Assembly (NCBI GenBank): GCA_902794035.1
Contig: CADBFN010000002.1
Span: 53,158-117,157, forward strand
Direction of reading: 5' to 3'
DNA from: an uncultured bacterium
Lineage (GTDB): Bacteria > Cyanobacteriota > Vampirovibrionia > Gastranaerophilales > Gastranaerophilaceae
Length of the DNA: 64,000 nucleotides
Position numbers and translations under genes: made by a program. Within the stretch, counting starts at the first letter, position 1; the number at the start of each line of letters is the position of its first letter. Positions 10,407 to 26,049 of this stretch are shown here, one piece after another. The notes below the pieces were generated by a model. The model saw only the letters and a program-made list of their open reading frames with translations, ran no database searches and was not told the origin of the DNA.

Positions 10407-10661
10407 ATGACAAAAGTAGACAAATTACTAAAAAAATTTATAAGCAAACCCAAGGATTTTACCTATGAAGAACTTGTCCAGATTCTAAAACGTTTTGGAT
10501 ACACAGAGTTAAAGACAGGTAAAACATCTGGTTCTGCTGTAAGATTTAAAAACAATTCTAATGATATAATAATGTTCCATAAACCTCATCCGGGTAATAT
10601 AATAAAAAGTTATGTAATCGATCAGATAATAGAAAAACTAGAAAGGAATGGGTTAATATAA
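10407..10661 (+). CDS. hicA: HicA-family mRNA interferase toxin
   Basis: An 84-aa protein of usual HicA size and form. It has TYEELVQILKRFGYTELKTG at the start, then a strand with SAVRFKNN, the catalytic-histidine region FHKPHPGN and the helix YVIDQIIEKLERNG. HicA toxins have a double-stranded-RNA-binding fold and cut mRNA through a conserved histidine, seen here in the KPHP motif. The gene overlaps the HicB start (TAATG). The predicted promoter begins transcription at the ATG itself. Confidence 0.85.
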   Translation: MTKVDKLLKKFISKPKDFTYEELVQILKRFGYTELKTGKTSGSAVRFKNNSNDIIMFHKPHPGNIIKSYVIDQIIEKLERNGLI

Positions 10662-11068
10662 TGTTTAATATGAAAAATGACAAAGTTTTAAAATATAAAA
10701 ATTATATTGGTTCTGTTGAATATGATTTAACAGATAAATGCCTTTTTGGAAAAATTTTATTTATTGATGATTTAATTACATTTGAAGGTAATACAATAGA
10801 AGAACTAGAAAAAGCTTTTCATGATATGGTAGATGATTATTTAGAAACTTGTAAAGAAATTGGTAAAGAACCACAAAAGGCATATAGTGGTACTTTTAAT
10901 ATTAGAACTACTCCAGAAATTCATCAAACATTAGTAGAAATTGCTAAAATGGAGAATGTAAGTTTAAATAAATTAATTGTTACTATATTCAATAATTTTA
11001 TAGAAGATAGTGAAAATAAAGATAATAGACTTTATAATCATATTTTAAAGAATTTATCTAATGCATAA
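10661..11068 (+). CDS. hicB: HicB-family antitoxin with ribbon-helix-helix tail
   Basis: A 135-aa antitoxin with the HicB layout. An N-terminal partial RNase-H-like fold (YIGSVEYDLTDKCLFGKILF) includes the typical TFEGNTIEELEKAFHDMVDDY. A C-terminal ribbon-helix-helix (FNIRTTPEIHQTLVEIAKME, then VSLNKLI) is the DNA-binding part. Its start overlaps the hicA stop; ATGs at 10661 and 10670 are both possible. It should neutralise HicA and repress the operon at the palindrome 10355-10377. Confidence 0.85.
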   Translation: MFNMKNDKVLKYKNYIGSVEYDLTDKCLFGKILFIDDLITFEGNTIEELEKAFHDMVDDYLETCKEIGKEPQKAYSGTFNIRTTPEIHQTLVEIAKMENVSLNKLIVTIFNNFIEDSENKDNRLYNHILKNLSNA

Positions 11069-11079
11069 TTTTTTTTATA

Positions 11080-11127
11080 ACATGACAAGAAATCTATAAT
11101 AAATATATTATAGATTTGCTATGTTTT
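11080..11127 (+). terminator. Rho-independent terminator after hicB
   Basis: A 12-base perfect stem (AAATCTATAATA / TATTATAGATTT, loop AATA) at 11090-11117 with outer ACAT/ATGT pairing, then a T run at 11124-11128. It lies 12 bases past the hicB stop. The stem is AT-only, so it is a weak call. Confidence 0.45.
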
Positions 11128-11184
11128 TATAGTTTAAATATTATAATTCATTTCAACAATGAAATATCTTTTTTTAAATTAATC

Positions 11185-11778
11185 TTAAACAGCTAAGTTT
11201 TTAATTTGTTTTGCAAACTCTTCTATTTCACAATTAATTAAAGAATCATACCAACCGTCAAAAAGGTTAAATTGATATACATTATTGGCATTAGCATATT
11301 CTTTGTTTGATTTGTGGTTTTTATCAGAACAATTTCCTTTAGTTAAAGAGATTAAGAATAATTTTACATTATTGCTATAACTAGTATCATAACTTCTATT
11401 ATTTGAAAACTCACAATTAATAGTTCTTGTATTCTTGAATATAAGATCTTCAGACAAAATTTTCTGGATAACTCCAGAAGCATTTCGACACCAACCCATA
11501 TTTGCTTTAATTTCGACCATCGCGATAACTTCGTTTTTATTATTTATAACCAATAAATCTGGTCTATGTGTTTTATGGTCAATATGAATTGATGGATCTA
11601 GAAAGATTTTGCAACTTGGTTGTAATCTTGAAATAAATAGTGCTATGCCATCTTCTATATCGCTACTAATCGCTCTTGAATGTCCACGATATATATTGTC
11701 TCCAAGAGTTTTCTTGGTTTCATTATAAGCATACTTAATTTCAGATTTTAATTTTTCTATACAATCAACTATTTCCAT
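11185..11778 (-). CDS. PD-(D/E)XK restriction-endonuclease-like protein
   Basis: A 197-aa protein. Residues 68-95 hold RPDLLVINNKNEVIAMVEIK, a clear D-x(n)-E-x-K nuclease core, preceded by the HKTH segment. The rest shows no known recognition domain. It resembles stand-alone nuclease-fold proteins that read as defence or DNA-repair accessory genes. It faces the convergent hicAB operon and is divergent from the DUF1643 gene. No partner methyltransferase is adjacent. The fold call is good; the target and role are unknown. Confidence 0.65.
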   Translation of the reverse strand: MEIVDCIEKLKSEIKYAYNETKKTLGDNIYRGHSRAISSDIEDGIALFISRLQPSCKIFLDPSIHIDHKTHRPDLLVINNKNEVIAMVEIKANMGWCRNASGVIQKILSEDLIFKNTRTINCEFSNNRSYDTSYSNNVKLFLISLTKGNCSDKNHKSNKEYANANNVYQFNLFDGWYDSLINCEIEEFAKQIKNLAV

Positions 11779-13293: not shown

Positions 13294-13899
13294 TTGGTTG
13301 TTAAAAACTTTACTGATGATAATATCAAAAATCTGCAATATAACGATACTCTACCTTTACATCTTACTTGCGATTTCAACGTAGATCCTATGTGTTGGTG
13401 TTTGGCTCATAAAGACGATAAAAATATTTATTTCTTTGATGAATTAACTATTGAAAATACCACTACTCAACAGGCAATAGATGAATTTATTCGCAGATAC
13501 CCTAATCATAAAGGGGATTTGGTTATAAACGGTGATGCTTCAGGTGATAACAGAAGCTCACAATCTGAATTTACTAACTATATGATTATAAAACGTGCGT
13601 TAGAATCACACGGTTATAATCCTAAATTTCAACTGCGAAATTTCAATCCGCCAATTCTTAATAGAATACAGGCTTTTAACGCAAAAGTGCGTAATTCAAA
13701 AGGAACAGTATCACTATTTATTGATAAACGGTGCAAATGGCTTTTGCATAATGTTTATAACTTATCATTTAAGGAAGGTACATCAATTGTTGATGTTCCG
13801 TCATTAAAGCAAATCAAAAATGACCACGATTTGAAATTCTTGGAACATCCTTTTGATGCAGCATCTTATTTGGTTGATTATTATTTCCCGATTAAATAA
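13294..13899 (+). pseudogene. Phage terminase large subunit, C-terminal nuclease part only
   Basis: The 201-aa product matches the RNase-H-like nuclease domain of phage large terminases: HLTCDFNVDPMCWCLAHKD carries the first catalytic aspartate, DLVINGDASGDNRSSQSEF the second, and NDHDLKFLEHPFDAASYLVD the third with the family ending. The N-terminal ATPase half is missing, so this is a remnant. The frame stays open and plausible back to about 13201 without a start codon. A small-subunit-like gene lies at 2.4-2.8 kb. Supports a dead prophage. Confidence 0.75.
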
Positions 13900-13978
13900 A
13901 TCAACCTGAAATACTTATTATTTCTAACTTTACCGAAGAAAATTATAAATGGAACTACAAAAAAAGAAAGGAGCAAAA

Positions 13979-14533
13979 ATGAATATAGTAGAACCAATAA
14001 GAAATAAAAAACATTTACACAAAGTAGAAAAAATACTACTAAATGAATCCGGTAGTAACGGATTAAGAAATTTACTGATTTGTTTGTTCGGTACAAATTG
14101 TGGATTGAGAATTTCTGACATTCTTAACCTTAATGTGAAAGATGTAAAAAACAAATCTTATGTAGAATTAACAGAAATTAAAACAGGGAAACGAAAGAAA
14201 TTTCCTATTAATGACAAATTAAAACCTCTGATTTATGAGTTTACAAAAGACCGTGATAATAATGAACCCCTATTTTTATCAAAATTTGGAAATCGAATGG
14301 AACGAACTCAATGTTATCGAATTTTAAATGATGCCTGTAAAAAAGCAGGAATTGAATATCGAATAGGAACTCATACTCTACGAAAGACATTCGGCTATCA
14401 TCATTATAAGAAATATAAGGATGTCGCCATATTACAAAAGATATTCAACCATTCTTCCCCATTGGTAACATTAATTTATATAGGAATAAATCAAGATATT
14501 TTGGATGATAGTTACAAAAGATTTATATTATAA
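13979..14533 (+). CDS. Small FimB-sized tyrosine recombinase
   Basis: A 184-aa recombinase, starting at 13979 where AAAGGAG lies 5 bases upstream; an ATG at 13949 has no such support. It contains only the catalytic domain: first arginine in TNCGLRISD (about residue 40), H-x-x-R in HTLRKTFGYHH (about 130), histidine in FNHSS and the tyrosine in TLIYIGI. At this size it matches FimB/FimE/MrpI-type inversion enzymes and small phage-type Xer proteins, without an arm-binding domain. Directly downstream lie three recombinase-like sites, two inverted, which makes a DNA-inversion role more likely than integration. Confidence 0.8.
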   Translation: MNIVEPIRNKKHLHKVEKILLNESGSNGLRNLLICLFGTNCGLRISDILNLNVKDVKNKSYVELTEIKTGKRKKFPINDKLKPLIYEFTKDRDNNEPLFLSKFGNRMERTQCYRILNDACKKAGIEYRIGTHTLRKTFGYHHYKKYKDVAILQKIFNHSSPLVTLIYIGINQDILDDSYKRFIL

Positions 14534-14567
14534 TTCAGTAATATCAACAAATTCAACATATCCTCAT

Positions 14568-14593
14568 CTCAACAAAATTATACTTATGTTGAG
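14568..14593 (-). repeat. Candidate recombinase site 1 (inverted orientation)
   Basis: Reads CTCAACA, 12 bases, TGTTGAG, a symmetric pair of 7-base arms. On the minus strand the centre is TAAGTATAATTT. It is inverted relative to sites at 14740 and 14887. Bases 14580-14596 are the perfect 17-base reverse complement of 14884-14900. Confidence 0.6.
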
Positions 14594-14739
14594 TTAGCAT
14601 GTCTATCATTCATTCTAATTCAAGATATAAGTACATCTTAAAGTGATTAAACCTTTAATAATATGTTGAGAAAACAATTCTTTTTAATAAAATTTAAGGT
14701 GCTAAAACACAGTCTATAAAGGGGTTATGAGGTAAACTG

Positions 14740-14761
14740 CAACACTTGTATAAGAGTGTTG
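14740..14761 (+). repeat. Candidate recombinase site 2 (direct relative to site 3)
   Basis: CAACA, centre CTTGTATAAGAG, TGTTG. The centre differs from that of site 3 at three positions. It also forms a short hairpin, so it might instead be a terminator-like structure, but no T run follows. Confidence 0.5.
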
Positions 14762-14832
14762 TAGTAAAATAATCCCTAAATTGTTGATACTAAAGGCTTT
14801 TTGATGAATATTAAAATTGCAAAATTATTTTT

Positions 14833-14861
14833 TGATGTTTTTATTTGTTTGTGCTAATATA
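14833..14861 (+). promoter_or_regulatory. Extended -10 promoter inside the invertible segment
   Basis: TTGATG at 14833-14838, 17-base spacer, then TAATAT at 14856-14861 with TG one base upstream (TGCTAATAT). It points rightward to the glycan operon whose first gene begins at 14944. Confidence 0.5.
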
Positions 14862-14886
14862 AGTAGTGTAAGCTTTTTAGACTTAA

Positions 14887-14910
14887 CTCAACATAAGTAT
14901 AAGAGTGTTG
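14887..14910 (+). repeat. Candidate recombinase site 3
   Basis: CTCAACA, centre TAAGTATAAGAG, TGTTG. Nine of twelve centre bases equal those of site 1 read on the minus strand, and the left arm extends the match to 17 perfect bases (14884-14900). Confidence 0.6.
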
Positions 14911-14943
14911 CAAAAGCTATTAACTCAAATAAAGAGGGAAAAA

Positions 14944-15117
14944 ATGACATTTAGGGAACATAATATTTGCGTAAAACGGTGGAAAAATATTCCTTTATAT
15001 TCAATAAAACGGACTAAATCTACACTTGAATTATTGTTATTGAGGTTTATACCAATCTGCAGAATACCTATACCTCAATATGAAGTTGTGAATGAAGGAC
15101 TTTTAATAAGAAAGTAA
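14944..15117 (+). CDS. Small basic protein at the head of the glycan operon
   Basis: A 57-aa protein starting at 14944 after AGAGGG; the frame is open to 14905 but that ATG-less part overlaps site 3. The segment IPLYSIKRTKSTLELLLLRF resembles the GIPLYKIKEYNDVETIYLF segment inside the next protein, so it may be a remnant or a free version of that module. It is basic and amphipathic and could lie on the membrane. No enzymatic domain is present. Confidence 0.45.
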   Translation: MTFREHNICVKRWKNIPLYSIKRTKSTLELLLLRFIPICRIPIPQYEVVNEGLLIRK

Positions 15118-15128
15118 AGAGGGATATT

Positions 15129-16955
15129 TTGAATAGTAATTTAGAGAATAGTGATATAAAATCAATAAAAATTTCTGTTGTTATACCGGTATATAACACC
15201 GAAAAGTTTTTAGAAAAATGTCTAAATAGTGTAATAAATCAAACATTTAAAGATTTTGAGGTTATATGTATAAATGATGGTTCTACAGATAATTCTGAAT
15301 CAGTTTTAAATTCTTTTGCTAAACAAGATAATAGAATAAAAATTATAAATCAACAAAATAGAGGTGTAAGTATTGCAAGAAATGAAGGTTTAAAAATTGC
15401 AAAAGGGGATTACATAAGTTTCATTGATTCAGATGATAGTGTCGCTCCTAATTATTTAGAGAACTTATATAATGCAATAATATCAACAGGGGCAGATATT
15501 GCAGTTACATCAATAATTAGAATAAAGAAAGGTAAAGAAAAGTACCGAGTAAAATATGATGAAATAAAAACATATACAACTTTACAAGACAAAATAGATA
15601 TTTGCAAAATTCCTGACTGTTCTTATGTGTGGAATAAACTGTATAAATCTGAACTTGCTAAAAGATTTAAATTTAAAGAAGGTGTTTTTTTTGAAGATGT
15701 TTTATGGATTCCAGAAGTTGTTAAAAATGCAAATAAAGTTGTAACTGTTTCAGATACACATTACATTTATTTTAATAATCCAAACAGTATTGTTCAAAGA
15801 TGTCCTTCTGCTAAAAAGCAAGAAGATGTCTATAATGCGAAAAAATATGCAATTCAATTTTTTGATGATAATCATTTAAGATTAGCTGAAAAAGAACGTA
15901 ATATCTCAAAAAAAGTTAAATTTTTCTGCGGAATACCTTTGTATAAAATTAAAGAATATAATGATGTTGAAACAATATATTTATTCAGTTTTTTACCAAT
16001 TATTAAATGTTATCCTAAGAAAAAAAATCTTTGTAAAATTCTCAATTTATATACTATTGAAGATTACGATATAACCCATAGAAAACTTACATTTTGTGGT
16101 ATTAAATTTAAATATCCTAGATCACAATATAGAAAATTAAAAAAGACAAGTCCGTATTATTATTATAAAAAAAATAAACTGGATATTACGACCTTACCCC
16201 CTGCAGAAGGTCAAACCCGTGACATTCAACTTGCCAATTTAGCATTATTAGAAGAACTTGATTATGTTTGTAAACAAAATGGTTTGAAATATTGGTTAGA
16301 TTTTGGAACTTTGTTAGGGGCAGTCAGACATAAAGGTTTTATACCGTGGGATGATGATATTGATACTGGCATGCCTAGAGAAGATTATGAAAAAATAATT
16401 GATGCCTTTGCAAAATCTTCAAGAAATCCCGATATTTATGCAGATATATTTATTGATAAAAGGAATAACTGCTCAATAAAAGTTTTGCATAAAAAATGTA
16501 GTTTATTATTTGTAGATATTTTCCCTTATGATTTTTATCCACGAGTATCTGAAAGAGAACAATTGGACATTAGTGATAAAATAATGTATTTTGTGCCAAG
16601 AAGTATTAGTGGGGAAAAATCAAAAGATGAAATTGTAAAAGAAATAGAACATTTAAGGACATCTGTATATTTAAGGCCTGTACTGGATAAAGATAGTGCG
16701 GATTTGGTATATGGCATAGATTATTGTCATAATTATAAAAATTGGTTTTATTCACAAGATTATTTTTTCCCTCTTAAAGAAATGTCATTTGAAGGAAAGA
16801 ATTTTCCTGTGCCAAATAATTCTGAAAAATATCTTCAAAGAGTATTTGGGAATTATATGGAATATCCAAGTCGTATAGGAGTAGGACATTCAATGTTTTT
16901 AACATTGACCAGTGATAATAAAAACATTATAGACAGTTTGAAAAATAATAGGTAA
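15129..16955 (+). CDS. GT2 glycosyltransferase-LicD fusion protein
   Basis: A 608-aa two-domain enzyme. Residues 12-120 are a family-2 glycosyltransferase (SVVIPVYNTEKFLEKCLNSV, INDGSTDNS, nucleotide-sugar DxD in FIDSDDS). Residues 280-350 are a linker with FCGIPLYKIK and FCGIKFK motifs. Residues 370-600 are a LicD nucleotidyltransferase domain with YWLDFGTLLGAVRHKGF and WDDDID. GT2 enzymes add a sugar from an NDP donor; LicD enzymes attach phospho-choline or phospho-polyol groups from CDP donors. Such a fusion would make and decorate a glycan in one protein. It starts a tightly spaced operon. Confidence 0.85.
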   Translation: MNSNLENSDIKSIKISVVIPVYNTEKFLEKCLNSVINQTFKDFEVICINDGSTDNSESVLNSFAKQDNRIKIINQQNRGVSIARNEGLKIAKGDYISFIDSDDSVAPNYLENLYNAIISTGADIAVTSIIRIKKGKEKYRVKYDEIKTYTTLQDKIDICKIPDCSYVWNKLYKSELAKRFKFKEGVFFEDVLWIPEVVKNANKVVTVSDTHYIYFNNPNSIVQRCPSAKKQEDVYNAKKYAIQFFDDNHLRLAEKERNISKKVKFFCGIPLYKIKEYNDVETIYLFSFLPIIKCYPKKKNLCKILNLYTIEDYDITHRKLTFCGIKFKYPRSQYRKLKKTSPYYYYKKNKLDITTLPPAEGQTRDIQLANLALLEELDYVCKQNGLKYWLDFGTLLGAVRHKGFIPWDDDIDTGMPREDYEKIIDAFAKSSRNPDIYADIFIDKRNNCSIKVLHKKCSLLFVDIFPYDFYPRVSEREQLDISDKIMYFVPRSISGEKSKDEIVKEIEHLRTSVYLRPVLDKDSADLVYGIDYCHNYKNWFYSQDYFFPLKEMSFEGKNFPVPNNSEKYLQRVFGNYMEYPSRIGVGHSMFLTLTSDNKNIIDSLKNNR

Positions 16956-16959
16956 GAAA

Positions 16960-17892
16960 ATGAAACTTTTTTCTATAAAAAATAATGAAGTGACAAAACA
17001 TATTGAATATAGAATATTTGGCATTAAAATATCACGCAGAAATAGAATTTCAGAGATTAAAGCTGAAAATGAATACTTAATAGATATCATTAACAGTATA
17101 GGAGCTGATAAAATTCCGGTTGCTAAAGGTGAACTAAAGGAATGGCAATTAGAATGTTTAGATTTAATGAGAACATTGGATAAAATTTGTAGAGAAAATG
17201 ATATTCCATATTGGTTAGATTTTGGAACTTTGTTAGGGGCAGTCAGACATAAAGGTTTTATACCGTGGGATGATGATATTGATATAAGTATGAAAAAATC
17301 TGATATTGACAGATTATTACCTATTTTAAAAGATTATTTCAAAGATAGTAAATATTTAGTAAGAGAACGAGCTATAACATGTAATAAATACCAAATAAGA
17401 ATTATGAATAAACAATATAATGTTGGTTTAGATATATTTCAAGTTTATACATATCCCAAAAGTGATTTAACTACAGAACTCTGTAATAAAATTAATCAAG
17501 ATATCGTTAAAGCAAGAAAAATTTTTGAAAATAAATATCGCGTAAAAACTATGACGAAAGAAGAAGTCATAAAATCAGTAAATGATATTTCAAATATTCA
17601 AAAACAATTTATTTTACCAACAAAATCGGAAAATACTCAAACTCCTATCTTATTTCACGGGATAGATTATCATTATGATGAAAAATACTTAGTAATGCCA
17701 TATAGTGAAATTTTCCCTCTCAAAGAAATAGAATTTGAAGGTTATAAATTTTATGTTCCAAATAAATATAAAGAATATTTATCACATCTTTGGGATAATT
17801 GGCAAAATATCCCTAACAGTATAGGCACACAGGAACATTTCTTTAAAAATTATAAAAATTCTAATTATTCATATAAAGAAGGAGAAAATTAA
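16960..17892 (+). CDS. LicD family phosphotransferase
   Basis: A 310-aa LicD protein beginning 4 bases after the previous gene. It carries YWLDFGTLLGAVRHKGF at about residue 84 and WDDDIDI at about 104; 22 residues here equal those in the upstream fusion, and the underlying bases are almost identical too, suggesting a recent duplication or conversion. The C-terminus has FPLKEIEFEGYKF, also found in the other LicD copies. An N-terminal IFGIKISRR motif is shared with paralogues. It should transfer a phosphorylated alcohol from a CDP donor to a glycan. The stop overlaps the next start (TAATG). Confidence 0.85.
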   Translation: MKLFSIKNNEVTKHIEYRIFGIKISRRNRISEIKAENEYLIDIINSIGADKIPVAKGELKEWQLECLDLMRTLDKICRENDIPYWLDFGTLLGAVRHKGFIPWDDDIDISMKKSDIDRLLPILKDYFKDSKYLVRERAITCNKYQIRIMNKQYNVGLDIFQVYTYPKSDLTTELCNKINQDIVKARKIFENKYRVKTMTKEEVIKSVNDISNIQKQFILPTKSENTQTPILFHGIDYHYDEKYLVMPYSEIFPLKEIEFEGYKFYVPNKYKEYLSHLWDNWQNIPNSIGTQEHFFKNYKNSNYSYKEGEN

Positions 17893-18992
17893 TGAAACAT
17901 TTTATAGTTGGGCCAGTAGAAATGTATGAATGTACAAAAAATGTTTTAGGAAAAGGTTATACTTATTTCAGAACTGAAGAATATGGGAATTTGGTAAAAA
18001 ATTGCCTTGAAAAATTATCTGAATATTTGGGTAATAGCACTCCAAATTCATTGATATATTTAGCATCTTCCGGTACAGGAGCTATGGAAGCAGTTATTGA
18101 TAATTGTATGACAAAATCCGATAAAGCTCTTGTCATTAAAGGTGGAACTTTTGGTAAAAGATTCTGCGAATTACTTAATTATTATGATATACCATTTGAA
18201 AGTATAGATTTGGAATGGAATGAAACTTTAACAAAAGAACATTTTAATAAATTTGAAAACAAAGGTTTTAATACATTATTTGTTAATATTGATGAAACTC
18301 AAACAGGACAATTATATGACATCAATATAATTAGTGATTTTTGCAAAAGAAACAATATGTATTTGGTTGTAGATGCAATAAGTTCTTTTCTTGCAGATGA
18401 ATACGATATGGATAAATATGGTATTGATGCAACAATAATAAGTTCTCAAAAAGGTTTATGTATATCTGCAGGAATGGCACTTATTTCATTTAGTAAAAGA
18501 TTTCTGAATAAAATTTATTCAAATCCTTTGCCAAGAACAAAATATTTTAATTTTAGAGATTATCTTAAAGAAATTGAAAGAGGACAAACCCCATATACCC
18601 CACCTGTTACAACTATGTATGAACTGGATGCAATTCTTAATTATATAGAACAAAGTGGTGGCAAAAATAAATGGATAAAAAATGTTGCAGATAAATGTAT
18701 GTATTTTAGAGAAAGAGCAACATCATTAGGTTTTAAAATTCCTCAATATCCAAAATCTAACACTCTTACACCGGTTTATTTTGATGATGTTGATGCAAGT
18801 GAAATTGTCAAAATATTAAGAGATAAGTATGAAATTTATGTAAATCCGTGTGGTGGTAATTTAGCAAACAGATTATTAAGGGTTTCACATATAGGAAATA
18901 CAACAATAGAAGATATTGACGATTTGTTAGAAAAAATGTCAAAAATTTATACTGAATTAAAAAGCAGGGAGTTAATTTATGATAGGAAATAA
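17892..18992 (+). CDS. Class-V PLP-dependent aminotransferase
   Basis: A 366-aa enzyme of the alanine-glyoxylate / 2-aminoethylphosphonate aminotransferase type. Motifs include LIYLASSGTGAMEAVIDN at the cofactor phosphate site, VVDAISSF with the PLP-pyridine aspartate, and the PLP lysine in ISSQKGL at about residue 187. It overlaps the next gene, a TagD-like cytidylyltransferase, by 14 bases. The pair suggests that an aminated small alcohol phosphate is made and activated as a CDP derivative. There is no PEP mutase gene here, so a phosphonate route is not supported. The substrate is unknown. Confidence 0.75.
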   Translation: MKHFIVGPVEMYECTKNVLGKGYTYFRTEEYGNLVKNCLEKLSEYLGNSTPNSLIYLASSGTGAMEAVIDNCMTKSDKALVIKGGTFGKRFCELLNYYDIPFESIDLEWNETLTKEHFNKFENKGFNTLFVNIDETQTGQLYDINIISDFCKRNNMYLVVDAISSFLADEYDMDKYGIDATIISSQKGLCISAGMALISFSKRFLNKIYSNPLPRTKYFNFRDYLKEIERGQTPYTPPVTTMYELDAILNYIEQSGGKNKWIKNVADKCMYFRERATSLGFKIPQYPKSNTLTPVYFDDVDASEIVKILRDKYEIYVNPCGGNLANRLLRVSHIGNTTIEDIDDLLEKMSKIYTELKSRELIYDRK

Positions 18993-19455
18993 AACTGTAG
19001 TTTATACTTCAGGTACTTTTGATATGCTGCATATAAATCATTTAAAAATGATAGAGTATGCAAGAGCTTTAGGCGATATTTTAATTGTTGGAGTTAATAC
19101 TGATGAACTTGTTGCAAGTTACAAATCTACTCCGATTATTCCATTCGAGCAAAGAATAGCACTTATGAAAGCTATAAAAGGCCCTGACATAGTTATACCT
19201 CAAAGGTCTTTAGACCATACAGACAAAGTAAAGAAATTGAATTTTGATATTTTTGTGGTTGGAGATGACTGGACTGGGAAATATGATTATTTAAAAGAAC
19301 AGGGAGTTGAAGTTGTTTACTTTCCTTATGGTGAAGGTATAAGTTCTTCAAAATTAAAAAAGAAAATTTATGATAATTATAAAAAATTACAGGATAAAGC
19401 CAATAATCATTTGCCACTTGATGCAGATGTACAAACTTTGGAGCTTAGAGAATGA
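18979..19455 (+). CDS. TagD-like glycerol-3-phosphate cytidylyltransferase family protein
   Basis: A 158-aa nucleotidyltransferase. VYTSGTFDMLHINHLKMIEY carries the HxxH nucleotide-binding motif (HINH in place of the usual HxGH), and GISSSKLKK near residue 133 corresponds to the ISTT-type CTP-binding motif. TagD enzymes form CDP-glycerol from CTP and glycerol-3-phosphate. The core is about 30 residues longer than TagD at the C-terminus. It overlaps the aminotransferase before it and the LicD gene after it, so the three are probably made together and act on one substituent. Confidence 0.8.
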   Translation: MIGNKTVVYTSGTFDMLHINHLKMIEYARALGDILIVGVNTDELVASYKSTPIIPFEQRIALMKAIKGPDIVIPQRSLDHTDKVKKLNFDIFVVGDDWTGKYDYLKEQGVEVVYFPYGEGISSSKLKKKIYDNYKKLQDKANNHLPLDADVQTLELRE

Positions 19456-20486
19456 ATATAGGACAATATATTATAGATATATTACGGAATAAACCCGATA
19501 AGAAATATATAGAATTAAGAAAAGTAATAAAATATTATAGCAAAAGTTATAATTTGAATAATAAAATTATAAATACAATAAATAATCGTTGTCGCATAAT
19601 GCAACGAAGTCATTATGACGAAGATGTTAAAGCTCTAAAAGACTATTTCAATACTTTAGATGCTACAAAATTAAAAAAAGCAAAAGGGGAATTTCGAGAA
19701 CATCAATTAAGAGTTTTGGAACTGGCTAAAACTCTTATAAAAGATATTGAAGAAATAGGTTTACATCCTATGTTGGTTGGGGGATCTTTAATAGGTGCTA
19801 TCCGTCATGGTGGTTTTGTTCCGTGGGATGATGATATTGATTTTGATTTAATGCAAGAAGAATTTGAAAAATTACTCCAATATGTAAAAGACAAATATAT
19901 TTTATGTGATGATTCTAAATGTGTAAAATATTATGAACAACTTGCAATTATTGATAAAACATTACAAGACAACCCAAATTCTATTATTTTCATCAAGAAA
20001 CCAACTTGTTTAAGTGCATATAAGGGTAAATCTCTTGAAAATTGTGTTGTTATTGATTTTTTCCCAAGAATTTATATAAATCCTGCAATAACACAAGCAG
20101 AATATGCTGCGTATAGAGAACACCAAAGTCATTTTTTAAGAAAGTCATTACCTTATTCAGAAAAGTTTGCTTACTGGAAAAAAGAAATTAATGATAGTGG
20201 AATTTTCTGTTCTAAAAGTGATTTAACAGCTTATGGGTGGGGAAATATTTCTTTTAAGAAACGGAATTTTTCAATAATGAATATAAATGATATTTTCCCT
20301 TTGGAAAACATTAATTTTGAGGGGCATATTTTTCATACAGTAAAAAATTACAGGAAATACTTAAATGATTTTTATGGGGATTATATGAAATTGCCTATAA
20401 AAATTAAAATTGCAGAATATGTAACACTTTACAATAAATATTTAAAAACAAAAGGTCGAGAATTTTATATTACAAAGGTTATTTAA
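19452..20486 (+). CDS. LicD family protein, divergent
   Basis: A 344-aa LicD member that overlaps the previous gene by four bases (ATGA). The active-site region is PMLVGGSLIGAIRHGGF with VPWDDDIDFDL, so the LDFGTLLGA form of the other copies becomes VGGSLIGA. The metal-binding WDDDID is intact. The C-terminal FPLENINFEGHIFHT motif matches the FPLKEIEFEG motif of the paralogues. The different pocket suggests a different phospho-alcohol or acceptor. An N-terminal extension of about 80 helical, basic residues is unlike the others. Confidence 0.8.
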   Translation: MNIGQYIIDILRNKPDKKYIELRKVIKYYSKSYNLNNKIINTINNRCRIMQRSHYDEDVKALKDYFNTLDATKLKKAKGEFREHQLRVLELAKTLIKDIEEIGLHPMLVGGSLIGAIRHGGFVPWDDDIDFDLMQEEFEKLLQYVKDKYILCDDSKCVKYYEQLAIIDKTLQDNPNSIIFIKKPTCLSAYKGKSLENCVVIDFFPRIYINPAITQAEYAAYREHQSHFLRKSLPYSEKFAYWKKEINDSGIFCSKSDLTAYGWGNISFKKRNFSIMNINDIFPLENINFEGHIFHTVKNYRKYLNDFYGDYMKLPIKIKIAEYVTLYNKYLKTKGREFYITKVI

Positions 20487-20497
20487 AGGTCAAAAAG

Positions 20498-21856
20498 ATG
20501 AAAACATTTGGTATAATACTAGCTTCGGGTACTGGTAGCAGATATGGAAATGACACTCCAAAACAATTTATAAAAATTGCAGGTAAAACAATATTAGAAC
20601 ATACAATAGAAATTTTTGAGAAATCAAAAAAAATTGATGAAATTATTATTGTAATTACCCCTTCTTATCGTAATATCACTGAAGAAATTTTAAATAAAAA
20701 TAATTATAAAAAAGTTTCAAAACTATTAAATGGGGGTGCTACAAGAAAAGAAAGTTCTTTTATTGGTATAAGTTCTATTGATGAAAATTGTGATAATGAT
20801 ATAAATGTGGTAATACACGACTGTGCAAGACCATTTTTAACTCAAAACATAATATCTGAATGCGTAAATGCACTATCAAAATATTTCGCAGTAGATGTTG
20901 CCATTCCGTCTGCTGATACAATTATAGAAGTAAACGAAGAAAACATTATAAATAATATTCCAAATAGAGCAAGTTTAAAACGAGGACAAACACCACAATG
21001 TTTCAAGCTCCCTATCATAAAAAAGGCTCACGAATTAGCAAAAAATGATAATAATTTTACTGATGATTGCGGATTAATCATAAAATATAATTTGGGTAAA
21101 GTTTATGTTGTAAATGGTGATACAGAAAATATTAAAATTACATACCCAAGTGATATTTATATGGCAGATAGATTATTTCAAATAAGAAGTACAATTTATC
21201 CGCATAAGCAAAATTTAAATAATTTAAAAAATTCAGTAATCGTAATATTTGGGGGAACAAGTGGAATCGGTTTGTGTACTGCCAAATTAGCAAAACAGTA
21301 TGGAGCAAAAGTTTATACTACTTCATCAAGTGTCGGTTGTGATATTACAAAATATTCTGATGTGCAAAAATTTTTAGAAAATGTTTATAAAGAAACAAAA
21401 CAAATTGATTTAGTGATAAATTCTGCAGGAATATTAAGAATGGGAAAATTATCGGAAAGAAGTATAGATGATATTCAACAGGACATAAATGTAAATTATA
21501 CAGGGGCAATAAATGTTGTAAAAGCATCTATACAATATTTAAAGGAAACAAAAGGCTCAATTCAATTATATGCTTCAAGTTCATATACAAGAGGTAGAGC
21601 ACTATACTCAACATATTCTTCGACAAAAGCAGGCATTGTAAATTTAGCACAGGCTACCGCTGAAGAATTGAGTTTTGACAAAATTAGGGTAAATGTTATA
21701 AACCCCGAAAGATGTGCAACCCCAATGAGATTTAAGGCTTTCGGTAAAGAGCCTAAAAACAGTTTATTAAATCCGGAAAAGGTGGCAGAAGCATCTTTGA
21801 AAACATATTTATCAGATATTACAGGACAAGTCATAGATGTAAAAAGGGAAAATTAG
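20498..21856 (+). CDS. Bcs1-like bifunctional ribitol-5-phosphate cytidylyltransferase / SDR reductase
   Basis: A 452-aa fusion. Residues 1-225 are an IspD/TarI-type cytidylyltransferase (IILASGTGSRYGNDTPKQF, later HDCARPFLT). Residues 245-452 are a short-chain dehydrogenase with VIVIFGGTSGIG at the NADPH site and catalytic YSTYSSTK at about 369. This order and length match Haemophilus Bcs1/Acs1, which reduces ribulose-5-phosphate and makes CDP-ribitol. The likely product is CDP-ribitol for one of the LicD enzymes in this operon. IspD activity in isoprenoid synthesis is unlikely given the fusion and the location. Confidence 0.85.
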   Translation: MKTFGIILASGTGSRYGNDTPKQFIKIAGKTILEHTIEIFEKSKKIDEIIIVITPSYRNITEEILNKNNYKKVSKLLNGGATRKESSFIGISSIDENCDNDINVVIHDCARPFLTQNIISECVNALSKYFAVDVAIPSADTIIEVNEENIINNIPNRASLKRGQTPQCFKLPIIKKAHELAKNDNNFTDDCGLIIKYNLGKVYVVNGDTENIKITYPSDIYMADRLFQIRSTIYPHKQNLNNLKNSVIVIFGGTSGIGLCTAKLAKQYGAKVYTTSSSVGCDITKYSDVQKFLENVYKETKQIDLVINSAGILRMGKLSERSIDDIQQDINVNYTGAINVVKASIQYLKETKGSIQLYASSSYTRGRALYSTYSSTKAGIVNLAQATAEELSFDKIRVNVINPERCATPMRFKAFGKEPKNSLLNPEKVAEASLKTYLSDITGQVIDVKREN

Positions 21857-21857
21857 A

Positions 21858-22889
21858 ATGAAATTTTTAGAAAAAATATTTTCAGTAAGAAATAGTGGAA
21901 TACATAAAGTTTGGACTATTTTTGGCATTAAGTGTTCATTTAAATCGTTAAATTTGCAAATTAAGCGAGTAAATACAAAATCAAAAAAAATAGAAAATCA
22001 GATGATTCAATTAATGACAATTATTGGCTCTAGTTGCGATATTACAAAATGTAAAAAAGCAACTGGTGATTTTAGATTATTGCAAGAAGTTCGTCTGGAA
22101 GCATTAAAGCTAGTTATAAAATTATTTGAGAAAAATAATATAGCTTACTGGTTAGATTTTGGTACATTGTTAGGGGCATATAGACACAAAGGCTTTATCC
22201 CTTGGGATGATGATATAGATATTGCTATATTAGAAAAAGACTTTTCAAAAGCAGAAAAAATATTAAATAATTTTTTCAAGGATACAGATTTAATTGTTGA
22301 ATTAGGTGGTAAAGATCGCTCTATGCTTTTAAGGGTAACAGATGCAGATAAAAAATTTATTTACATTGATATATTCCCATACAGTTTTTGTAATAACTCA
22401 GATTTAAAAGAAGAAGAAATATTATCCCGTTTAAATGAAGTCAAAACTTTATTTTATAGAAACTACAATGTAAAAAAATTATATTATTTATTTAAAGATT
22501 CAAAAATAAAAGAAGTTTTAAATTATTTGGAAGATTTGTACAAAAAGTTTGGAATTAAAAAAACTTCGCAAGCAGGCAAGTATCTTTTTTATGATATTTG
22601 GGCTATGTACTCTAATAATAAGCAAAGTTTACACTGTTCATCAGATGTTTTCCCGTTACAAAAATTACAATTTGAAGATATTGAAGCTAATGTTCCAAAA
22701 GATGTTATTACATATTTAAGCAAGTGTGATGAGGGTGCTTATGGGGATATTATGTCATTTCCACCATTGAGAACATTTTGTAACCACCTCGCACTTGATG
22801 AATTAAATAGAAATACAAATTATTCAAAAGAGCTTGAACTAAAGAAAAATTACATTATAGAGTTATCAGAAAATTATAATAAGGAATAA
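21858..22889 (+). CDS. LicD family phosphotransferase
   Basis: A 343-aa LicD protein, 1 base after the CDP-ribitol synthase, so possibly its partner. YWLDFGTLLGAYRHKGF lies at about residue 97 and WDDDIDI at about 117. It has the shared VFPLQKLQFEDIEANVP C-terminal motif and an N-terminal TIFGIKCSFK motif. It should transfer a phospho-alcohol, plausibly ribitol-phosphate, to the growing glycan. Acts at the cytoplasmic face; no membrane helix is seen. Confidence 0.85.
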   Translation: MKFLEKIFSVRNSGIHKVWTIFGIKCSFKSLNLQIKRVNTKSKKIENQMIQLMTIIGSSCDITKCKKATGDFRLLQEVRLEALKLVIKLFEKNNIAYWLDFGTLLGAYRHKGFIPWDDDIDIAILEKDFSKAEKILNNFFKDTDLIVELGGKDRSMLLRVTDADKKFIYIDIFPYSFCNNSDLKEEEILSRLNEVKTLFYRNYNVKKLYYLFKDSKIKEVLNYLEDLYKKFGIKKTSQAGKYLFYDIWAMYSNNKQSLHCSSDVFPLQKLQFEDIEANVPKDVITYLSKCDEGAYGDIMSFPPLRTFCNHLALDELNRNTNYSKELELKKNYIIELSENYNKE

Positions 22890-22895
22890 AATAAA

Positions 22896-24719
22896 ATGAA
22901 GTTAGATAAGACAAAAGGTAAAAATTCTTATAGATACGGTTGGTTATTAAAACGCATTTTTCCATATATAAAACCGGTTTTAGGACGAGTTATTCTTGGT
23001 TTTTTAGTCGCAATACCGCTTGGAGTTCTTGACGGTGTAACTGCATTTGCCTTAAAACCATATATGGACTATGTTGTAGGACAAAAAGACTGGATATTTA
23101 ATTTGTTTGGTCATAGTTATACTCTACATTGGCAATTATTTGCATATATCATTCCTTTTGGAGTTGTTTTATTTGCAGTTATACAGGGAATATTAAAATA
23201 CCTAAACTCATATATTTCTGAATGGACAAGTTTAAAAATTACAAATTCAATAAAAATTGATTTATTCAAACATCTTGTAAATATGGATACTAAGTTTTTT
23301 GATGAAAATTCTTCTGGTATAATTTTATCACGATATTTGAACGATCCATCTACTGCTGCTGATGGTCTTATTGATAAATTAAAGTCTTTAACAACAAGTG
23401 CATTTGGGGCATTAGGCTTAATAGGTGTTATGCTTTATAGTTCTTGGCAATTAGCATCTGTGGGTGTAATTATTCTTTGTACGGCATTTCTACCAGTATT
23501 TTTAATCCGAAAACTTGTTAAAAATGTATCTAATCGCAGAATGGTTATAAATGGTAACATAAGAACAAATATGAATGAAACATATTCGGGTAATCGTGTA
23601 ATGACGGCATACCAATTACAAAATCATCAAAAAGATAAATTTGAACACGAAATCAATGAATCTTTTAATGTTTCTATGCACTTGGTAAAACGATCCGGTT
23701 GGATGTCACCTTTAATGTATTTAATTGCATCAATGGGTATAGCAATAGTTTTAGGATATGGTACAAGTTTGATAACAAAAGGACAAATTACCGCAGGAAG
23801 TTTTGCATCGTTTGTAACCTCACTTTTATTACTATACAAACCTGTAAAAAATCTCGGAAATACTATGACAAGTATTCAAAGTATATTTGTTGCTATGGGT
23901 AGAGTGTTTGAATTATTTGATATAATTCCCGAAATTCAGGAAAAACCTGAAGCACTCGAATTTAAAACATTACAAAACAACCTAAAACTTAATAATGTAA
24001 ATTTTGAATATATCAAAGGAAAACCGGTTCTTAAAAATATAAATCTAACTATTAATAAGAATGAAACTGTTGCTCTTGTTGGTAATTCCGGTGGTGGAAA
24101 ATCAACAATAGTAAACTTGATTTCTCGTTTTTATGATGTAACAAGTGGAGCAGTTGAATTAGACGGTATTGACATTAGGGATTATACATTAGACAGTATA
24201 AGGAAAAATATTGCGGTAGTTTTTCAAGATAATTTTCTTTACTCCGGTACAATAAGAGAAAATATTCTAATGGGAAATTTTAATGCTACTGAAGAAGATT
24301 TACAAAAAGCAGTAAAAGCAGCATATCTTGAAGAAATGTTAGAGAATATGACAGATGGTCTTGATACCGTAATAGGTGAAAGAGGAACGACCTTATCGGG
24401 TGGTCAAAGGCAAAGAGTTGCTATTGCAAGGGCTATGATAAAAAATTCTTCTATAATTATACTTGACGAAGCGACATCTGCGTTAGATAATCAGTCTGAA
24501 GCCATTGTGCAAAAAGCAATAGAAAATCTTATGAAAGAGAAAACCGTAATTGTAATTGCACACAGGCTTTCAACAATTAAGAATGCTGACAAAATTGCAG
24601 TAATAAACGAAGGTGAACTTGTAGAACTAGGTACACACGAAGAATTAATGCAAATTGAAGAAGGTCAGTATAAAAAATTGTATGATATGCAGTTTAAGAA
24701 ACAGAAAAATCATGTGTAA
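22896..24719 (+). CDS. MsbA-like ABC exporter (fused permease and ATPase)
   Basis: A 607-aa half-transporter. The N-terminal half has about six membrane helices (VILGFLVAIPLGVLDG, FAYIIPFGVVLFAVI). The ATPase half has Walker A GNSGGGKST at about residue 395, signature LSGGQRQR at about 500 and Walker B IIILDEATSALD. MsbA-type exporters act as homodimers and flip lipid-linked substrates. At the end of a glycan operon it probably moves the finished lipid-linked product across the inner membrane. There is no Wzx/Wzy or Wzm/Wzt pair in this locus. Confidence 0.9.
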   Translation: MKLDKTKGKNSYRYGWLLKRIFPYIKPVLGRVILGFLVAIPLGVLDGVTAFALKPYMDYVVGQKDWIFNLFGHSYTLHWQLFAYIIPFGVVLFAVIQGILKYLNSYISEWTSLKITNSIKIDLFKHLVNMDTKFFDENSSGIILSRYLNDPSTAADGLIDKLKSLTTSAFGALGLIGVMLYSSWQLASVGVIILCTAFLPVFLIRKLVKNVSNRRMVINGNIRTNMNETYSGNRVMTAYQLQNHQKDKFEHEINESFNVSMHLVKRSGWMSPLMYLIASMGIAIVLGYGTSLITKGQITAGSFASFVTSLLLLYKPVKNLGNTMTSIQSIFVAMGRVFELFDIIPEIQEKPEALEFKTLQNNLKLNNVNFEYIKGKPVLKNINLTINKNETVALVGNSGGGKSTIVNLISRFYDVTSGAVELDGIDIRDYTLDSIRKNIAVVFQDNFLYSGTIRENILMGNFNATEEDLQKAVKAAYLEEMLENMTDGLDTVIGERGTTLSGGQRQRVAIARAMIKNSSIIILDEATSALDNQSEAIVQKAIENLMKEKTVIVIAHRLSTIKNADKIAVINEGELVELGTHEELMQIEEGQYKKLYDMQFKKQKNHV

Positions 24720-26049
24720 AAATTTTAAAAAACTTGCTGATAATATGATTGACTTATTAAATGAGATTAATCAAGTCATAACATTTAATTTTAATAATTC
24801 TGATATTACATTAAATGATGTTGCAATTAAAACAGATAATATATCTTTTAATTCGGAAAATAAAGAATTCTTATTTCAAAGCAAACAAATTGAAATTCTT
24901 AATAAAATAAATGATTATGTAGATGTAAAAATCAACAATGAATATTTTTTAAAAAATTGTTTGTATCTTAATGATAAGTTTGGTAATGTTAAGATTAAAT
25001 ATGCAAATATTGAGTATAAAAAAATTACTAATCAAAAACAATTAAATGTAGCGATATTCAAGAAACCAAAACAATTTAGGAAAGTAAATGATTATATAAT
25101 TGATCGTTCAAATATACCTTTTGCTGAATTTAATTTATATGAAGAACATTTTATCTTAATAATGAAAAACGAAAATTTATTTCTTATTTCTGACAATTTT
25201 TTACAAGAAGATATTTTTATAAAATATGCAACAAGTATTAAACTTGCAATAGGGCTATTAGCTTGTGATTTTATTGGAGGAGATGAAATTTTTGCTTGCA
25301 CTGACACATCTTACAAACTAATTAATTTAAAAAGCTTTTCAATGACATCTGAACAGAATTTGAATTTTGATATATTTACAACTTGTTTACCTATATTGTT
25401 TCAAAGAATTAATCAAAATAATGTTGCATTGACTTCCGAACAATTTACAAATTTATGCAGACTTATTTCTGAAAATGAACAACTACAAGTTGCAGTATAT
25501 TACATAGCACAAAGTGCAAATTTGTGGGTAGAACATAAATTAACCTTTTTAGCTGTAGCTTTAGAAGCTTTAACTGGGTATATTGCAGAAAGTAAAAATG
25601 AGAAATTATTACCCGACGATATTTTTACGGATATAGAGGGAAGATATAAAGATTTCTTAAAAACACTAAACTTAGAAAATGATATTATAGAAGTTCTTGA
25701 AGGAAAATTTCGGAATTGTAAGTCCAATAATACTAAACTTAGAGAACCTTTTGAATATTATGGAATTACCATTAATAAAGAAGATAATGAAATGATTCAA
25801 AAAAGAAATCCTTTATTACACGGTAAGGGATTTAAATACAGTAAAGATATATTTTCTTATTCTATAAAACTTGAAAAGCAAACAAAAATTTACTACCACC
25901 TTTTATATTCGTTATTATTAAAAATTTGTGGTTATAGTGGAATTATTATAAACTTAAAATTATGGGATGAAATAGTAAAAAACAATAACAATTTAATAGG
26001 TAGTAATAAATTTTTGTCTAATTTTGAAAATTACACATTGGAAATATAA
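24712..26049 (+). CDS. HEPN-like protein of unknown function
   Basis: About 445 aa from the ATG at 24712, which overlaps the ABC gene end by 8 bases; a frame open from 24655 lacks a better start. The C-terminal region (AQSANLWVEHKLTFLAVALE, then QKRNPLLHGKGF) resembles ApeA-type HEPN domains, where R-N-x(3)-H is the RNase-type active site. The N-terminal half is strand-rich and unassigned. HEPN proteins often act in phage defence. It may be a defence gene that has joined the end of the operon; the link to the glycan is doubtful. Confidence 0.55.
   Translation: MCKNFKKLADNMIDLLNEINQVITFNFNNSDITLNDVAIKTDNISFNSENKEFLFQSKQIEILNKINDYVDVKINNEYFLKNCLYLNDKFGNVKIKYANIEYKKITNQKQLNVAIFKKPKQFRKVNDYIIDRSNIPFAEFNLYEEHFILIMKNENLFLISDNFLQEDIFIKYATSIKLAIGLLACDFIGGDEIFACTDTSYKLINLKSFSMTSEQNLNFDIFTTCLPILFQRINQNNVALTSEQFTNLCRLISENEQLQVAVYYIAQSANLWVEHKLTFLAVALEALTGYIAESKNEKLLPDDIFTDIEGRYKDFLKTLNLENDIIEVLEGKFRNCKSNNTKLREPFEYYGITINKEDNEMIQKRNPLLHGKGFKYSKDIFSYSIKLEKQTKIYYHLLYSLLLKICGYSGIIINLKLWDEIVKNNNNLIGSNKFLSNFENYTLEI

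Follow-up and report, generated by a model that had tools for sequence, protein, structure and literature searches.

In Enterobacteria, Bacteroides and Clostridia, promoter inversion is a known route to phase variation. In Escherichia coli, FimB and FimE are short tyrosine recombinases associated with fimS, the invertible promoter element beside them. Mpi, in contrast to these, is a serine recombinase and acts on at least thirteen scattered genome regions, while the shufflons rearranged by Rci contain more than two sites and yield several arrangements of small coding segments. The cited sections of the literature further describe ipuS (IpuA/IpuB), an invertible element of 260 bp with 7-bp repeats (PMC6083910); the cwpV switch of C. 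difficile, in which 195 bp between imperfect 21-bp repeats are inverted by RecV (PMC2784873, PMC5903667); Mpi-driven inversions of capsule promoters in Bacteroides fragilis (PMC5903667); and pneumococcal hsdS inversions by PsrA (PMC4948785).

The locus described here lies in the window, i.e., the whole 64,000-nucleotide stretch of DNA that was analyzed, whose host is likely a Gastranaerophilales bacterium of the gut. Our main reading, to which we assign a probability of roughly 0.87, is that a 184-aa recombinase acts on its three sites to rearrange the two small modules between them, one of which carries a predicted promoter, and so switches the downstream LicD/glycosyltransferase genes between expression states. 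The module between direct sites is named X and the one between inverted sites Y, with a prime marking the opposite orientation. The features of the locus are as follows.

13979–14533, plus strand: tyrosine recombinase of 184 aa, catalytic domain only, assigned by Pfam, phrog_216 and conserved residues; predicted to act on the three downstream sites.
14554–14558, plus strand: extra CAACA half-site, 16 bp before s1; the 16-bp spacing recurs in six of eight three-site loci.
14570–14591, minus strand: site 1 (s1), CAACAAAATTATACTTATGTTG; polarity opposite to s2 and s3, with a 19-bp perfect inverted repeat shared with s3.
14577–14605, minus strand: weak promoter candidate of Y, TAGACA-17-TATAAT, with its -10 in the s1 core, directed toward the recombinase; 11 of 12 positions match, with a counterpart in L087 and none in L086.
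14592–14739, no strand: module Y, as Y', 148 bp, between the inverted s1 and s2; matches the reverse complement of module B in L085 and L087, and forward B in L086.
14657–14674, no strand: conserved AATAATATGTTGAGAAAA within Y, a CAACA half-site on the minus strand; core kept in the window, L085, L086 and L087.
14740–14761, plus strand: site 2 (s2), CAACACTTGTATAAGAGTGTTG; pattern match.
14762–14888, no strand: module X, as X', 127 bp, between the direct s2 and s3; matches the reverse complement of module A in L085, L086 and L087.
14832–14860, plus strand: predicted promoter of X, TTGATG-17-TAATAT, extended -10 TGCTAATAT, directed toward the operon; based on conserved position and direction, and missed by a simple consensus scan.
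14889–14910, plus strand: site 3 (s3), CAACATAAGTATAAGAGTGTTG; pattern match, with an identical 22-mer in G066 and G385.
14944–15117, plus strand: ORF of 57 aa, without a Pfam match, separating the switch from the glycan genes.
15129–26049, plus strand: nine co-oriented ORFs, a predicted surface-glycan operon under the switch (ORFs and Pfam).

The recombinase is 184 aa long when read from the ATG at 13979 and 194 aa from the ATG at 13949. The initial annotation had described a catalytic-domain-only tyrosine recombinase of 184 aa, which agrees with the ORF and with a match to Pfam Phage_integrase (PF00589) over residues 17–170 (4.4e-28; 98.6 bits, cut-off 27.1). The R, H-x-x-R, H and Y residues of tyrosine recombinases are present, with R44, H132, R135, H158 and Y167 invariant in family alignment A1. 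The best family was phrog_216 (7.6e-59), a whole-protein profile match spanning residues 1–182, and a PDB search returned Xer and integrase catalytic domains plus one oddly named chain. The label "FimB-like" is apt for size class and working principle but not for family membership: the FimB/FimE-type NCBIfam models NF007370 and NF007371 scored 45.2 and 52.9 bits, far under their cut-offs of 221 and 222.

Several observations connect the gene to phages. Among annotated phage proteins, its nearest relatives are mostly streptococcal and 46–49% identical; phrog_216 is annotated as "integrase"; and a fragment of a terminase large subunit just upstream (13294–13899; phrog_10250, 2.1e-10) is likely a prophage remnant. 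All of this would suit a degraded prophage, in which a phage integrase lies beside its attachment sites and no switch exists, a reading to which we give a minimal probability. The site copies do not form the direct pair around an integrated element that attachment sites would: s1 and s3 are inverted, and the direct copies bound just the small module X. Only 3 of 75 loci from the viral collection carry repeats, all three with recombinases 59–61% identical to the query. This scarcity, together with the inversions with half-site exchange described below, led us to discard the attachment-site reading. To judge from its sequence, the gene may be a phage recombinase put to new use at this locus.

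Three sites of the design CAACA-N12-TGTTG follow the recombinase gene on its 3' side, the first after a 36-bp gap. All three had been recognized in the initial annotation, and their polarity is as it proposed, s1 being inverted relative to s2 and s3, and s2 direct to s3. The repeat common to s1 and s3 does enclose 287 bp, but its perfect length is 19 bp (14578–14596 and 14884–14902) rather than the 17 bases given there. With at most one mismatch, CAACANNNNTATANNNNTGTTG matched three times in the window, compared with a mean of 0.02 and a largest count of 1 in 100 shuffles. In the whole 1.79-Mb assembly it occurs in three places, all inside one 341-bp stretch at this locus, and the reversed-pattern control had zero occurrences there. 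The CAACA half-site 16 bp before s1 may be an accessory binding site, a candidate suggested by its recurrent spacing.

To assess the association between this gene family and such repeats, recombinases of at least 45% identity over nearly the full length were collected, a set of 134 places that reduced to 125 distinct genes; of these, 114 had 500 bp of downstream and 121 had 500 bp of upstream sequence. An inverted-repeat pair was detected downstream in 32 of 114 and upstream in 0 of 121; one of the 32, L153, has a tRNA-like repeat. Five shuffles gave 0 each, and in five rounds of random windows the counts were 2, 1, 0, 0 and 1 of 114. By the same criterion 82 of the 114 loci have no pair, so that the association is strong, not universal. 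In the window itself, inverted repeats adjoin the recombinase gene, in the manner of fimS. Another cellular recombinase such as XerC/XerD could make the inversions, leaving the local gene a bystander, as the genome holds three other Phage_integrase genes and RecV of C. difficile, in the cited part of its description, acts from a distance (PMC2784873). This is very unlikely, given that the repeats adjoin this gene family on the downstream side only, that the site sequences vary between loci along with the local recombinase, and that the site pattern is found nowhere else in the genome.

Two further repeat layouts were seen. L152 has, at +4 to +210 after the recombinase, perfect 47-bp inverted repeats enclosing 113 bp, the highest-scoring pair of the repeat scan. 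In L052, L060, L070 and L163 the pair encloses the recombinase gene itself, which would therefore flip with the segment; the gene that follows in L060 and L070 encodes a protein of 1500–1975 aa with a LysM domain.

The nine ORFs of the predicted operon encode a GT2-LicD fusion, LicD, a class-V aminotransferase, a cytidylyltransferase, LicD, an IspD-SDR fusion, LicD, an ABC transporter and one protein without a Pfam match. Across the family, the first downstream ORF was co-oriented with the recombinase in all 31 repeat-bearing loci and in 59 of 79 others, counted without L153 and loci with less than 1000 bp downstream. Very long proteins were omitted from the Pfam searches, which covered 55 of the 57 proteins downstream and 55 of the 56 upstream; the two omitted downstream have an FHA domain and a weak peptidase match, respectively. 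Downstream, Glycos_transf_2 (9), Phage_integrase (7), LicD (5) and Glycos_transf_1 (4) were accompanied by sugar-metabolism families, among the 25 of 45 families listed. The corresponding list of 25 of 106 upstream families included phage virion morphogenesis (3), Phage_integrase (3) and TPR repeats (2), and no glycosyltransferase.

Rearrangements were sought among the best 80 of 526 relatives and the patterns listed for them. Their records are mostly Candidatus Gastranaerophilales or gut "bacterium", with one Clostridium (L164); the whole-genome set comprised 60 relatives and 6 regions from a genus search. Between the window and L085, the recombinase gene aligns forward (82.9%) and 14569–14915 reversed (67.6%); in L087 the gene is likewise forward and the same interval aligns reversed (69.1%). 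For the whole segment, z was 16.4 (L085) and 16.3 (L087) when inverted versus 3.2 and 0.8 forward. By modules, the window's first matches the reverse complement of the second in L085 and L087, and its second that of their first. These matches define the arrangements as Y'X' in the window, XY in L085 and L087, and XY' in L086. L086 and L087, both of genus g26, have identical recombinase genes, and their Y modules match inverted (147/148) while X matches forward (125/127).

An independent pair, L093 and L094, is 95.7% identical over a 4.27-kb alignment that takes in recombinase, switch and glycan genes. Its Y modules are identical at 142 of 143 positions, only when inverted, whereas X (131/134) and the 300 bp beyond s3 (297/300) align forward. 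The inner half-sites of s2 and s3 are swapped exactly, which places the crossover inside TTAGTATT. As the two loci belong to different genera (g18 and g22), their near-identity suggests a recent transfer of the switch plus operon between genera.

A third pair differs by a missing module. L307 has three sites and L308, from another genus, two; their genes match at 526 of 540 positions and Y at 144 of 145 in the same orientation, and X is absent from L308. The left site of L308 combines the outer half of site 1 of L307 with a second half that has one changed base, and the sequences beyond site 3 differ (96/144). The difference fits excision between direct sites, insertion being the formal alternative. 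By weaker matches, orientation also varies among two-site relatives, with L089 and L309 opposite to L310, L311 and L315.

Both orientations thus occur in nature, between related loci and between species, with breakpoints at the repeats, and these paired loci with flipped or missing inter-site DNA make it likely that the adjacent recombinase rearranges the segment. The initial annotation had proposed comparing related genomes for both orientations, and the window against L085 and L087, L093 against L094 and L086 against L087 all supply them. The pattern it named as contrary evidence, a single orientation everywhere with direct copies resembling attachment sites, is not that of the relatives. 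The additional products it predicted also have counterparts, a second inversion in the Y flips of two pairs and a direct-site deletion in the X missing between L307 and L308. Its general reading as an inversion switch gains support from the module and en-bloc inversions, the conserved motif discussed below and the glycan bias of the downstream genes. The layout that it likened to fimS has three sites and two modules and is therefore not simply two-state. Reading the sites as operators for a regulator was discarded, as rearrangement breakpoints fall at them.

A plain two-state switch of the fimS kind, with just s1 and s3 recombining and s2 as a relic or accessory binding site, would agree with the 19-bp perfect repeat, the longest, being common to s1 and s3, and with the many relatives that have two sites only. 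We consider it unlikely, for inversions end at s2 in two independent pairs, the L307/L308 excision ends at the middle site, and s2 keeps its position across relatives once inversion is allowed for. Most of the relatives are metagenome-assembled genomes, and assemblers might have oriented short inter-repeat segments arbitrarily. Such an artefact is extremely unlikely: the sites are 22 bp long, below read length, the half-site exchange is base-exact, the whole-segment inversion separates diverged species, and orientation is consistent with site polarity and promoter direction.

Contig ends offer a further observation. Among the best 80 of 526 relatives, 9 contigs end within 450 bp downstream versus 3 upstream, and 12 versus 8 within 1000 bp, an excess suggestive of mixed orientation in the samples. 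The contigs of L090, L041 and L145 stop 2–5 bp past a palindromic site 3' of the recombinase, suggestively, as would be expected if both orientations co-occur in a sample.

The three-site layout, with the adjacent recombinase as the presumed agent, was found in the window, L085, L086, L087, L088, L093, L094, L096, L125, L146, L306 and L307. L088, L096 and L125 have a weak middle site (16–17 matches of 22–24), and in L151 and L152 the third site is spaced differently. X and Y gave no clear signal of being mutual duplicates (z at most 3.4 in seven loci; 82/132 in L307). The two-site switch of G006, from the window's genus, has X of L088 as its best candidate match (z 3.3). G066 (L275, L167), with a recombinase 94% identical to that of the window, has two sites and an X-like module facing the operon, and no Y; this form is unexplained by our model, in which Y never sits between direct sites.

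The initial annotation had also pointed to TTGATG-17-TAATAT inside the segment, directed toward the LicD operon, and as a sequence motif it is indeed there. It matches 8 of 12 hexamer positions by manual count and is absent from the list of a simple sigma-70 scan, which gave 8 promoter-like sites versus 5.5 ± 2.3 in shuffles, no clear excess. Since consensus scans did not exceed shuffles, positional conservation was used instead. The extended -10 TGnTAnnAT, a short motif in an AT-rich genome, was present outward in X in 8/8 three-site loci, 28–37 bp from the outer site, and inward in 0/8, a count that omits the near-duplicates L087 and L093 and in which the window, L085 and L086 form one clade; 1000 base-content shuffles gave a mean of 0.61 and a maximum of 4/8. 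In two further loci, L306 and L307, it lies outward at 37 and 38 bp, and in one of them also inward. The motif was derived beforehand from the window clade, L088 and L094, so that only L096, L125, L146, L306 and L307 (5/10 loci) are fresh tests.

Of the ten loci, the window and L146 have the X motif directed toward the operon, and the remaining eight toward the recombinase. In Y, an extended -10 lies outward in L088 and L306 and inward in L096, L146 and L307. A looser -10 motif in the 32 repeat-bearing segments, in a count that also omits L153, was outward in 23 and inward in 12 (shuffles 10.9 ± 2.7, maximum 20); the outward copies faced only the recombinase in 15 segments, only the operon in 4 and both in 4, and 9 had none.

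We hypothesize that the recombinase binds the half-sites and exchanges strands in the site core in the manner of Xer and Cre. Recombination of s1 with s2 would flip Y, that of s1 with s3 would flip both modules, and that of s2 with s3 would excise X. Lying between inverted sites, Y could flip alone, and X, between direct sites, would turn only together with Y or be excised. Four arrangements are predicted (XY, XY', YX' and Y'X'), and the window clade shows three of them. In X, the conserved extended -10 would act as a promoter, and the arrangement of the window, with X' beside the operon, would be the ON state, driven by the X promoter.

Eight relatives contain a second recombinase, at 10647–11186 on the minus strand in L036 and as the first gene past the switch region in L044, L096, L102, L112, L120, L129 and L130. 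H132 is lost in 8/8 and R44 in 6/8, the hairpin Lys is gapped in 8/8, and Tyr is replaced by Phe in 5/8. Repeats are present at six of these loci and absent from the near-identical L129 and L130; the window lacks the degenerate gene. Its product is predicted to be catalytically inactive, binding DNA without cutting, and perhaps feeds back on the switch.

A more extended proposal, whose truth we rate somewhat above even, is a combinatorial switch in which one local recombinase, three sites and two promoter cassettes give four states, site polarity setting which cassette flips alone and which is lost. Gastranaerophilales would have many such switches with different sites and glycan operons, at least one of them shared between genera, and some would have a dead recombinase as the first switched gene, which could feed back. 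If the main reading is right, a gut lineage known chiefly from metagenomes varies its surface glycans by a multi-state switch, and the natural pairs are ready substrates with exact predictions for orientation, crossover core and excision product. Among the matches listed, titles and the starts of abstracts held no description of promoter-inversion switches in Gastranaerophilales/Melainabacteria or of a three-site, two-module switch, most subscription papers lying outside this scope.

Together, these sequence comparisons make a multi-state promoter switch that controls surface glycans, and that goes beyond fimS in complexity, the most likely reading of the locus. Like fimS and ipuS, it has a short tyrosine recombinase adjoining an invertible element for surface genes (about 260–314 bp in those systems), here with a predicted promoter; unlike these, which have two sites and one element, it combines three sites and two modules with a predicted route of excision and glycan targets. 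With the RecV switches it shares a tyrosine recombinase, short intergenic segments and, probably, a gut bacterium as host. According to the cited sections, however, the RecV gene is not near the cwpV switch and serves several target loci, and the segment that inverts does not contain the cwpV promoter (PMC2784873, PMC5903667), whereas in the window the gene adjoins its sites and the predicted promoter is inside. Invertible promoters for surface polysaccharide operons, predicted at this locus, are also the feature of the Mpi system, but the window recombinase is of the tyrosine, not the serine, type and has sites only at its own locus. As in the shufflons and in hsdS/PsrA, more than two sites would give several arrangements of small segments; those systems rearrange coding segments, whereas the modules of the window are intergenic and predicted to be promoter modules.
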